Positions 46,869-51,864 of a stretch of DNA of 64,000 nucleotides are shown here, one piece after another. The stretch spans positions 1 through 64,000 of the forward strand of contig NZ_WBZB01000016.1 of assembly GCF_009017255.1 (NCBI RefSeq). Reading direction: 5' to 3'. Below the pieces are notes generated by a model. It was not told the origin of the DNA and made no database searches. It worked only from the letters and a program-made list of their open reading frames with translations. The stretch's first letter is position 1. Every line of letters begins with the position of its first letter. A program made the position numbers and the translations under genes. This stretch comes from Alkaliphilus serpentinus (GTDB lineage: Bacteria; Bacillota; Clostridia; Peptostreptococcales; Natronincolaceae).

Positions 46869-46904
46869 GTTTAAAATAGTAATTTTTTTCAAAGGAGGCA
46901 TGTG

Positions 46905-49148
46905 ATGAGGTCAGAATTTTACTTAGAATGTAAAAGCTTTATAAACGAAAACCTTCAAGGGCTATCTTTTAAAAAACCTGAAGGATTACTATGGATATAC
47001 CTCCAAATATACTACTATAATTTATACCCACAGAATACTCCATTAAATAGCAAAAAGACATTTCTAGATTATCTAGATGGAGATCATCATTTTAATTCAT
47101 ATCTTAGTGGATTTACTGAAATCCCTGAGGAATTCTACAATGAAGTCCATAAAAAAATCCTATCGCGTTTCTCCTTTAAGAAGATAGGGGACCTTCAGGA
47201 GGTAGCCTTGAAGGAATTTGAGATATTATTTGAGGGAGCCTTGCAAAATAACCTTAGAAGTAAAACCGGGACCTATTATACTCCTGCTGAAATTGTTGAT
47301 TTAATGGTGAATAGAGGGATATTAGCTACTGTAAAAGAGGGTAAGCAACAAAAAATGTTACAAGCTGTATTAGATCACAAAAGTATTAATCTAGAAGAAG
47401 CTATTGCAAGGAAATTAATTACCCACCTAGAGGGAATCAAAGTAATTGATATCGCCTGTGGCGGAGGCGTGTTTTTAAGGGAGGCCTTAAAGACCATCAC
47501 AGAGGCTTTATTAACATTATATAGCCTTCTTGGTGTCAGAAAGCAAACTGTGGAAATAAAAGAGCTAATTTTAAATAATATTTATGGTATTGATCTCCAA
47601 GAGGATACTGTAGCCCTTTGTAAGCTCCTTCTCTTGATGGAGATTAATAAAGGGTCTACTACAGAAGCAAAGGATTACACCCTAAATATTCTTGCAGCAG
47701 ATGGTTTGTTGACAGATGAAATCAACCAAAGGAAATTAGAGGGAGAATTTGATTTAGTAATTGGAAATCCGCCTTATATAGGAGAAAAGGGTAATAAGAG
47801 AATATTTGAGGAAATCAAAAAAACCTCTTTTGGAGACTCCTACTATGAAAGTAAGATGGACTATTTTTACTTTTTTATATATCGTGGCTATCAGCTATTA
47901 AAGCAGGAGGGAACATTGATTTATATTACAACAAACTATTTTGTTACTGCCGATGGAGGACAAAAGCTAAGGGCCTTTTTTAGAAAGCATATGACCTTTC
48001 GATGGCTGGTAAATTTTAATGAGGTAAATTTATTTAAGGAAGCAAAGGGTCAACACAATCTGATATTTTTAGCTGAGAAAACCAAAAAAAGCATTGAAGC
48101 TGAGATCATTCATTTGGGGGATAAAACAAGAAAGCTATCGGATATTCATAAGGCTTTAAATGGTAAAGAGGTTAAAGGGGTTGTCAACTCCAAGGTTTTT
48201 AATGTAGATTTATATGATGAGAGGGGCAACATAGTCCTTTATCAAGAGAAGATGGATTTTAAGCTACAGAAAAAACTACTATCGGTTTCTACAAAAGCTT
48301 TAGGTGAACTATGCAATATCAACCAAGGGATGGTTAGTGGAGCCGATAGACTATCTACAGCATGGGGTAATGCCCTTGGACTTAGCCAGAATATTGGGAA
48401 GGGGATATTTGTGTTAAAAGAAGCAGAGGTAAAGGAAAAGGCCCTTGATCATCCTTTATATAAAAATTTCCTTAAAGATTTCTATAAAAATAGCGATATA
48501 GTTAGATATTCTACTAAAACCAGTAGGGGTCTAAAGATCTTGTATCTGGATGATGAGTATCCTAAGGATATAATAGATTATCCTGCCCTTTATAACCATT
48601 TGAAAGAATATAAAACTCTTTTAATGGAAAGAAGGGAGGTTAAAAAGGGGACAAGAAAATGGTACGCCCTACAATGGCCTAGAAGTAAAAAAATCTTTGA
48701 AGGGAAAAAGCTTTTAGTGCCTCAACGAGCTAATGTGAATTCCTTTGCATACCATGAGGGTCCATGGTATGCCAGTGCAGACGTTTATTACATCACTCTG
48801 AAGGATGAATCAAACTCCATATTCTATCTTTTAGGAATATTAAACTCATCAGTAATATACTACTGGCTCTATCATAGAGGCAAAAAAAAGGGAGAGTATT
48901 TAGAGCTATACTCTACTCCCCTAAAATCGATTCCCATCTGTTACACAGATGATCTTGAGGTCATAAAAGAGATCGAAAGAACTGCCTACCAGCTGACCTT
49001 TGGTAATTTAGATCAAGACCAATTTCAACAATGCTATCATAGAATAGACCAATTGGTATTTGAGCTTTACAGGTTGGAAGAGGAAGAAATATACTATATT
49101 AAAGATTTCTGCAATGCCAAAATCAAAATAGGAGTACTTAGGGCTTAG
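46905..49148 (+). CDS. orphan N6-adenine DNA methylase (Eco57I/TaqI type)
   Basis: 747 aa from the ATG at 46905 (GTG 46902 also possible), with AAAGGAGG at 46891-46898. Motifs: SKTGTYYTPAEIVDLMV, SAM-binding IDIACGGGVFLREAL, and catalytic DLVIGNPPYIG (NPPY). The C-terminal third (INQGMVSGADRLST, LVPQRANVNSFAYHEGPWYASADVYYI in parts) is a TaqI-like target-recognition domain. No nuclease gene or clear nuclease motif is nearby, so it appears solitary. Its end overlaps the convergent gene by 11 bases. Confidence 0.9.
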   Translation: MRSEFYLECKSFINENLQGLSFKKPEGLLWIYLQIYYYNLYPQNTPLNSKKTFLDYLDGDHHFNSYLSGFTEIPEEFYNEVHKKILSRFSFKKIGDLQEVALKEFEILFEGALQNNLRSKTGTYYTPAEIVDLMVNRGILATVKEGKQQKMLQAVLDHKSINLEEAIARKLITHLEGIKVIDIACGGGVFLREALKTITEALLTLYSLLGVRKQTVEIKELILNNIYGIDLQEDTVALCKLLLLMEINKGSTTEAKDYTLNILAADGLLTDEINQRKLEGEFDLVIGNPPYIGEKGNKRIFEEIKKTSFGDSYYESKMDYFYFFIYRGYQLLKQEGTLIYITTNYFVTADGGQKLRAFFRKHMTFRWLVNFNEVNLFKEAKGQHNLIFLAEKTKKSIEAEIIHLGDKTRKLSDIHKALNGKEVKGVVNSKVFNVDLYDERGNIVLYQEKMDFKLQKKLLSVSTKALGELCNINQGMVSGADRLSTAWGNALGLSQNIGKGIFVLKEAEVKEKALDHPLYKNFLKDFYKNSDIVRYSTKTSRGLKILYLDDEYPKDIIDYPALYNHLKEYKTLLMERREVKKGTRKWYALQWPRSKKIFEGKKLLVPQRANVNSFAYHEGPWYASADVYYITLKDESNSIFYLLGILNSSVIYYWLYHRGKKKGEYLELYSTPLKSIPICYTDDLEVIKEIERTAYQLTFGNLDQDQFQQCYHRIDQLVFELYRLEEEEIYYIKDFCNAKIKIGVLRA

Positions 49149-49998: not shown

Positions 49999-50176
49999 AA
50001 AACACCTACCTAATCTATCTATACTATAATCATATAAGAAGTCCACTAAAAAGAAAAGAACCTTATGTTTTATATTATAAGAGATCATGAATTAGAAATC
50101 AGTCAAAATGAAATGGTATAAAATTGGTAGTTGGAGGGCAATACTTACTGCCTAAGAAGGGAGAATTAACACTTAG

Positions 50177-50405
50177 AACAAAAGCATTTCATGCGTTAAT
50201 TTTCTATGGTTAAAATGCTTTTGTTTTCCAGAGAACCCATGCGTTCTCTAGGACACTTCTTTTTCGGTCGTCTCACCGTCTCGACGCCGTTCGTAGCACA
50301 GTGTCACTTATTCGTGACACAACTCACCTCTCCTTATTTTTATAAGGGGGAGGGGCCCCTTAAAATCCCCCATTTAATAGGAAAAAAGAGAACTTTCCTA
50401 TTAAA
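50177..50405. other. dense hairpin cluster before the PD40 lipoprotein
   Basis: Hairpins in order: AACAAAAGCATTT / AAATGCTTTTGTT (50177-50225); GAGAAC / GTTCTC (50231-50248); GTGTCAC / GTGACAC (50301-50320); CCTTAT / ATAAGG (50332-50347); TTTAATAGGAAA / TTTCCTATTAAA (50373-50405). AGGGGCCCCT (50351-50360) is a further palindrome. The middle is more GC-rich than the surroundings. The first and last stems are perfect. Class unknown. Confidence 0.6.
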
Positions 50406-50424
50406 TTAAAAAGAGAGGATGAGG

Positions 50425-51864
50425 ATGAAAGTGACAGCTCATAGATTATTCATCTTATTGATGGTGATTTCATTGTTATTAACTGGATGTACAGCTACCG
50501 ATGATATAGAAACAGAATCATTGGCCCTTCAAGTAGAGGAAATTAAAGAAGCAACAGAAGTTGAGGAAGAACCGGAAATTGAAGAAGTTTTTGATATAAA
50601 AATCGAGAAAAATGAAGACCATTTTCGTATAACCGGTGGAGAAATTAAAGACTTTTTTATTTGGGAGAATGAGGAGCAATTGCTATTGACTGATGAGGAG
50701 TCAGGAAAAACCCTCCTTCTTAAGCTTCAAGAAATAGAATGGGAAGAGACGAATCCCCCTATAGTTGACTTACTTAATGATGGTGAGCGGATTGTAGCAA
50801 TAGAAAGCCCCTTAGAGGGAAGATATTTCATCATTAAAGAGACTGAAGGTTTTACATTGTATCATCTAAGCAAGAATAGCTTTAAATCCATAGCAACCAT
50901 TGCTGGAGAAGATTATCCCAGTTATAAAATTAGTAAAGATGGCAGCAGGATAGCATTTATAGATGATGAAACAAAAAATATCAGCATCTATAGCTTGAAT
51001 ACAAAACAATTTACAAGCTTTAATTTAGACATAGAAGTGGAAGAGTACTTAAAGAATTTTCATGAAAGGGTTATTTTATCTCCTAAGGGAACTTATCTAA
51101 CCTTAATTACGAAGGATGATAATGGAATAGAAGGCTTTAAGAGCTTTTACTCAGATAGTGGTAAAATCCTTCATGATTTAATTTATGGTGTTTGTCCCGT
51201 ATGGAGCAACAATCAGAATCATATTGCCTATCTCTATAGAAGTAGTTCGGAGGCTGTAGCAAAGGAGACTATAAATGGTGTACCCCTATATACCTCCGAT
51301 AAGCTTGGGATATTTAATCGGGGAAGCAGAAAAATCAGTTTAGTCACCGAGGTTGAGGGTCCTAATAAAATCATTGGTGGGGCCCAGTGGACTCCCAATG
51401 ACGACATCCTTATTTTTACTGGTGGAGATACTGATCTATCACTCCTTTATCTATATACAGTAAAGAGTAAAAGTATAACCACCTATAAGAATGATGCCTT
51501 CATAATCAGCTATCAGCTGCTGGAGAATCAAAGCTTAGTTCTCAATGTTTCTCAAGATGAAGGAACTGGATTAAAGGTTGTGAATACAGGGGATGGTAGT
51601 AGTACAACAATTGACGAAATTAATAGCTTTAAGCTATCAAAGACCAATAAAGAAATTCCCTTTTTAATCATCAATGATGAGATTATCTATATAAAGGAGA
51701 ATTCTTTGTATGCATTAGATAGTCAAAATAGTAGGTGCCTTTTTAAGAACAGAAGAGAGATTGATAGCATACAATATCTCAGCAATATTAGTTCAATAGC
51801 TGTTGTTTTTCAGGATGGACCAGCAACAGAAATTGCTGTGGTTCCTTACAACCCTAAAGAATAA
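50425..51864 (+). CDS. PD40/TolB-like beta-propeller lipoprotein
   Basis: 479 aa; ATG 50425 has AGAGAGG 6 bases upstream, with ATG 50419 as an alternative. Signal peptide with lipobox LLTGC, then a Glu-rich linker. The rest shows repeated WD/PD40-like units (YKISKDGSRIAFIDD, CPVWSNNQNHIAYLY, GGAQWTPNDDILIFTGG). It is surface-anchored; the role is unknown. Dense hairpins precede it. Confidence 0.8.
   Translation: MKVTAHRLFILLMVISLLLTGCTATDDIETESLALQVEEIKEATEVEEEPEIEEVFDIKIEKNEDHFRITGGEIKDFFIWENEEQLLLTDEESGKTLLLKLQEIEWEETNPPIVDLLNDGERIVAIESPLEGRYFIIKETEGFTLYHLSKNSFKSIATIAGEDYPSYKISKDGSRIAFIDDETKNISIYSLNTKQFTSFNLDIEVEEYLKNFHERVILSPKGTYLTLITKDDNGIEGFKSFYSDSGKILHDLIYGVCPVWSNNQNHIAYLYRSSSEAVAKETINGVPLYTSDKLGIFNRGSRKISLVTEVEGPNKIIGGAQWTPNDDILIFTGGDTDLSLLYLYTVKSKSITTYKNDAFIISYQLLENQSLVLNVSQDEGTGLKVVNTGDGSSTTIDEINSFKLSKTNKEIPFLIINDEIIYIKENSLYALDSQNSRCLFKNRREIDSIQYLSNISSIAVVFQDGPATEIAVVPYNPKE

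Follow-up and report, generated by a model that had tools for sequence, protein, structure and literature searches.

Small repeats and introns comparable to the locus

BOX-type repeats and bacterial MITEs are small, non-coding sequences of modular build, in which a core can be optional, and they are thought to be mobilized in trans. To our knowledge, none of them is targeted to terminators. These modular repeats have been reviewed (PMC2229807). Group IIC introns insert at intrinsic terminator motifs (PMC4424553). The locus described here lies in a stretch of 64,000 nucleotides of Alkaliphilus serpentinus DNA (contig NZ_WBZB01000016.1, positions 1 to 64,000), which is referred to below as the window. 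Positions 50176–50406 of the window hold an element that is likewise small, non-coding, and modular with an optional core, and we know of no sequence relation between it and BOX-type repeats or MITEs. Its ends are two different hairpins and not inverted copies of each other, which separates it from DDE-type MITEs. Hairpin ends without terminal inverted repeats, an intergenic position and the presence of multiple copies are shared with the palindromes of REP/RAYT systems and with those derived from IS200/IS605. However, copies of the element do not flank RAYT genes, which have different repeats of their own. Like group IIC introns, the element inserts at intrinsic terminators, but it is shorter than 250 nt, no reverse transcriptase ORF or ribozyme was seen in it, and some of its carriers are genomes in which no reverse transcriptase was detected.

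The closest described family is Clostridiales-2 (Rfam RF02937), which is filed as “Gene; sRNA”. Leaving the original family description aside, we are not aware that RF02937 has been described as a mobile element. The evidence presented below makes it very probable that the element at 50176–50406 is a non-autonomous, terminator-seeking mobile element and a distant relative of RF02937.

Structure of the element and its surroundings

The initial annotation had reported five or more hairpins in front of a lipoprotein gene, with perfect stems of 13 and 12 bp around a GC-rich core unlike its flanks. The hairpins are real, as two outer stems and four inner hairpins (B, C1, C2 and D below) are present and both strands fold about 5.5 SD below shuffled sequences. 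For positions 50140–50420, the minimum free energy was −85.3 kcal/mol on the plus strand (z = −5.6) and −90.5 kcal/mol on the minus strand (z = −5.4), and 0 of 200 shuffles were as good in either case. Both outer stems are perfect (50177–50189/50213–50225 and 50372–50384/50394–50406), and the second, taken for 12 bp, also measures 13 bp. The core has a GC content of 45–48%, compared with 25–37% outside, as had been noted. Being conserved and present in many copies, the feature is far from a product of chance.

The structural (RNA) sense of the element is the minus strand, opposite to the lipoprotein gene. About 58 copies whose flanks are unrelated, together with tandem copies in a second genome (G008), served to set its boundaries. 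The features are as follows.

50176 to 50406, minus strand: whole element, long form, running 5' to 3' from 50406 to about 50176
50372 to 50406, minus strand: 5' terminal hairpin A of the ATTTAATAGGAAAG..CTTTCCTATTAAAT type, common to RF02937-type elements of other genera
50342 to 50363, minus strand: G-rich hairpin B, which corresponds by alignment to the one hairpin in the RF02937 model
50327 to 50335, minus strand: conserved AAGGAGAGG motif; RF02937 consensus AAGGAGGGU
50301 to 50320, minus strand: core hairpin C1, GTGTCAC..GTGACAC, long form only
50265 to 50289, minus strand: core hairpin C2, arms CGTC/GACG, CGCC/GGCG or CACC/GGTG, long form only
50262 to 50327, minus strand: GC-rich module, replaced by TTGTA or GCTGTA in the short form
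50228 to 50252, minus strand: hairpin D, arms AGAGAAC/GTTCTCT, AGGGAAC/GTTCCCT or AAGGAAC/GTTCCTT
50177 to 50225, minus strand: 3' terminal hairpin E, terminator-like, with the end GCTTTTGTT(C/A)
50407 to 50412, minus strand: T-tract at the insertion point (TAAAAA on the plus strand), without a terminator stem and directly before the lipoprotein ribosome-binding site
50425 to 51864, plus strand: lipoprotein gene, whose upstream region now holds the element; no Pfam match

The lipoprotein ORF, with the lipobox LLLTGC, begins at 50419, 13 nt downstream of the element, or at ATG 50425; the spacing to the GAGAGG ribosome-binding site makes 50425 the more likely start. The left neighbour is a lipoprotein with a metallo-beta-lactamase fold on the minus strand. 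No tie of either flanking gene to the element was found, and the lipoprotein gene would be a bystander. At the window copy, promoter and terminator signals did not exceed chance in a scan with consensus sequences. Further upstream (46902–49148, plus strand), the window encodes an Eco57I-type restriction-modification methylase with a TaqI-like specificity domain.

Copies, length forms and compensatory changes

A search of the host genome (G000) with the region gave 58 similarity matches, in which each short copy counts as two. With a pattern for the most conserved hairpin, about 41 copies were counted in G000, about 33 in G008, at least 11 in G017 and 1 in G007, and the reversed pattern, used as a control, gave 0 matches. 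All copy counts rest on such pattern and similarity searches. Several copies are 98–99% identical over about 237 bp with unrelated flanks. The genome search for repeat copies that had been suggested with the first description thus returned about 41 dispersed copies, and the mobile element, one of the options offered there, gains further from the target preference and from an occupied/empty pair in the related RF02937 type. The presence of the element among related genomes is patchy. No match was found in phages, plasmids or viral contigs. A 17-base pattern had two matches in the contig search, one in a Bacilli MAG and one in a Burkholderiales genome, and these were taken as chance hits in unrelated bacteria.

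The element occurs in two length forms, a long one of about 237 bp and a short one of about 172 bp, which is without the GC-rich core (about 50262–50327). Both forms are found in G000 and G008, which belong to different genera of one family, and the window copy is nearly identical to the short form outside the core. The stems were counted one by one, since folding the complete MAFFT alignment with RNAalifold yielded a poor structure. In up to 51 copies, the named stems contain 1651 Watson–Crick pairs (about 99%), 10 G-T, 3 A-C and 13 other combinations. One pair of C1 is T-A in 11 copies, T.G in 4 and C-G in 2, and the arms of C2 and of D vary among the listed versions in a compensated fashion. 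In G008, hairpin E is replaced by another perfect hairpin. The ratio of G-T to A-C mismatches is 10:3 in these copies and 23:13 in a second count, both from too few lineages to tell RNA from DNA or one strand from the other. Wobble pairs are rare (about 1%), and in our judgement selection on DNA hairpins may explain this no less well than selection on RNA.

Many draft contigs of G000 end in or beside copies of the element (C2, C5, C8, C12, C17, C23, C34, C35, C38, C43, C47, C51, C60, C62, C66, C67, C70, C80 and others). The ends of C17, C23, C66 and C80 are the same 22 bases that flank the copy on C78, and flanks at contig ends may therefore be chimeric. In G017, an apparent IS-like end starting with GAGACTGTTGACAAAGTCCACC abuts or interrupts the end of a copy at two loci, L172 (C26, near 90870) and L186 (C58, near 57480). 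Two Rfam matches above gathering lie near copies elsewhere, namely a T-box leader (L054, 1714–2053) and a molybdenum cofactor riboswitch (L157 of G008, 2386–2500).

Relationship to Clostridiales-2

At the Rfam gathering score, nothing was found in the window, neither a riboswitch nor an intron. The earlier statement that no family could be recognized is right at this threshold, but a diverged relationship to RF02937 can be detected in sister copies. The window copy scores 12.7 bits (E = 4) and its short sisters 21–31 bits; neither reaches the gathering score of 58.6 bits, and by this Rfam criterion neither the long nor the short form is a member. The low score of the window copy is probably due to its enlarged core. 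A covariance search across the class, as had been recommended, gave 11 matches in G000, and all 11 fell on short copies of the element, on the minus strand, with E values from 2e-5 to 5e-4. In the alignments, which cover the full model, the G-rich hairpin, the AAGGAG strip and the GUC..AG.GAAC end are common to the element and the family. In G003, a related element reaches 81 bits against the model. Homology to RF02937 is thus statistically detectable on the right strand and at the right place, and the window copy is related to the family through the short form.

The likeness extends to the order of the parts. On the same strand, both have a 5' palindrome (which in RF02937-type copies lies outside the Rfam model), a G-rich hairpin, a AAGGAGGGU-like strip, a GUC..AGGGAAC hairpin and a terminator-like end. 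Both also share their placement behind terminators, a feature found here that is not part of the Rfam definition. The window subfamily differs in the absence of A6 after hairpin A, in a different 3' hairpin, and in a core that is either enlarged (long form) or absent (short form). Further modularity is seen within the RF02937 type, where a variant with a longer 3' part carries an additional hairpin module, GCAGGCAACCAATTTAG..CTAAATTGTGTTGATCGC, ahead of the end (L094, L181, L219 and L223–L226 in G003; also L228 and L260).

Insertion behind intrinsic terminators

In most copies, the 5' end on the minus strand sits in a T-run, typically 6–8 nt after the stem-loop of a host intrinsic terminator. 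Over the 58 copies, the 50 nt upstream on this strand fold at −12.2 kcal/mol, compared with −4.5 kcal/mol on the other side (p = 7e-10), and genes on the upstream side run towards the element in 47 of 58 cases (37 + 5 + 5). The excess of upstream stem-loops together with this gene orientation indicates that the usual position of a copy is immediately after the intrinsic terminator of the gene before it. The window copy departs from this pattern: next to its 5' end lies TAAAAA, and then come the GAGAGG and the start codon of the lipoprotein gene. Most copies end, on the minus strand, in a terminator-like hairpin of their own. In G008, head-to-tail copies start exactly after hairpin E plus TTTTGTTC of another copy (L153), so the 3' end of the element also serves as a landing place. 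Remnants in the same genome that consist of hairpin E only (L152, L157) stand directly on a terminator T-run.

The RF02937-type copies follow the same plan. In 50 copies from many genomes, a gene and its terminator are followed by a T-run, the palindrome ATATAATAGGAAAG..CTTTCCTATTATAT, A6, the RF02937 body, a hairpin and a T-run. A stem-loop of −8 kcal/mol or lower ends at the T-run in 45 of these 50 parsable copies, compared with 5 of 50 downstream (p = 1e-14). Members are patchy in several families of the class, and several genomes hold at least 21 copies each. The copy L285 in G123 splits a repeat (GGGGACGGTTCGTCTGGCACAGATGTTTTTTAT|GTGCCTGAGGAAC) of which the same genome has two uninterrupted occurrences elsewhere, and the comparison of occupied and empty sites shows a precise insertion after TTTTTTAT. 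This clean empty site belongs to the RF02937-type relative and not to the window subfamily. TTTTTAT at the 3' end may have arisen by target duplication or may belong to the element. When the two sides are compared, the bases that follow the T-run agree in L220, L189, L299, L312 and L315 and disagree in L290 and L294. In part of the RF02937 type, the T-run plus 2–4 nt is repeated at both ends, with p = 0.018 in a weak test; no target duplication is evident in the window subfamily.

Alternative explanations

The alternative that survives best, though it is rather unlikely, is an RNA-mediated process, in which a short structured RNA is copied in trans by a reverse transcriptase, that of a group IIC intron or another. 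It would explain the shared preference for terminators with a polarity that appears the same as that of group IIC introns, and the remnants of hairpin E on terminator T-runs and the covariation of the stems would agree with it. However, no RVT_1 match was found in G008 or G007. The sole trace of a reverse transcriptase found in G000 is a group II intron gene with in-frame stops (C34, 76846–77660; L107, L140), and G000 and G008 nonetheless hold most of the near-identical copies of the window subfamily. With no such gene found in two carriers and a broken one in G000, a group II reverse transcriptase is unlikely as the present-day mobilizer in these genomes. The element, at 172–240 nt, also has no Rfam intron match, and the rarity of wobble pairs likewise argues against copying through RNA.

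Under another reading, implied by the Rfam filing, selection has multiplied the copies as functional sRNA genes or as regulatory modules at 3' ends; its probability is lower. The conserved structure, the AAGGAGGGU motif and the terminator-like 3' end speak for it, and the noncoding RNA of the initial annotation is possible to the extent that relatives are filed as sRNA and the stems covary. Selection on a gene accounts poorly for dozens of near-identical copies beside unrelated genes, for the precise insertion of an RF02937-type copy into another repeat, for the patchy presence among related genomes, and for a window copy with no promoter signal above chance.

Similarly low odds apply to a REP/RAYT-like system, in which Y1 transposases (RAYT) of the carrier genomes would move the element. 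Y1_Tnp genes, most of them RAYT-sized, are present in 10 of 10 genomes tested, and hairpin ends suit such enzymes. Nevertheless, Y1_Tnp genes also occur in genomes that yielded no copy of the element, and the RAYT genes examined are flanked not by the element but by a different palindrome, GGGGACGGTTCT..AGAACCGTCCCC, which forms a REP family of its own (L120–L124 in G000; also in G003, G008 and G017). The flanks of IS200 were rejected as relatives of the element since they carry other palindromes, and an IS91-like GTTC end was rejected because many copies have GTTA at their 3' end.

A leader, attenuator or riboswitch dedicated to the lipoprotein gene is very improbable, for although the element ends 13 nt before the ORF and its plus strand also folds well, the other copies adjoin dozens of unrelated genes and for the most part stand the other way round relative to them, the polarity of the terminator is that of the opposite strand, and Rfam gives no riboswitch.

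Proposed mechanism and significance

For the preferred explanation, a non-autonomous mobile element, an enzyme supplied in trans would copy or move the element, and its end signals would be the terminal palindrome and the T-runs at the two ends. Landing behind terminators would limit harm to the host, as the terminator of the upstream gene stays in place, and the hairpin brought in at the 3' end may recreate a landing site, as the tandem copies suggest. The most likely chemistry would be a hairpin-recognizing transposition at single-stranded DNA, which is preferred because the element ends in hairpins instead of inverted repeats and there are carriers in which no reverse transcriptase was detected. 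No mobilizing gene was found; the genes that recur beside the copies are ordinary ones, and no transposase was noticed among them. The arm of the element, the target and the 3' T-run show a tendency to change in step, with versions such as CAT and CAA. A bolder and quite tentative proposal is that Clostridiales-2 and the window element form one widespread superfamily of terminator-seeking mobile elements in which the inner arm of the palindrome, ATATAAAAAA, guides insertion by pairing with the T-run target, the mover not yet being linked to it.

The element explains many breaks in the draft assembly. Beside group IIC introns, it would be a second case in which intrinsic terminators serve as landing sites. 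RF02937 is extended to a diverged branch that is invisible at the Rfam threshold, and a family filed as an sRNA gene gains a different, testable identity, namely that of a mobile repeat that homes on terminators.
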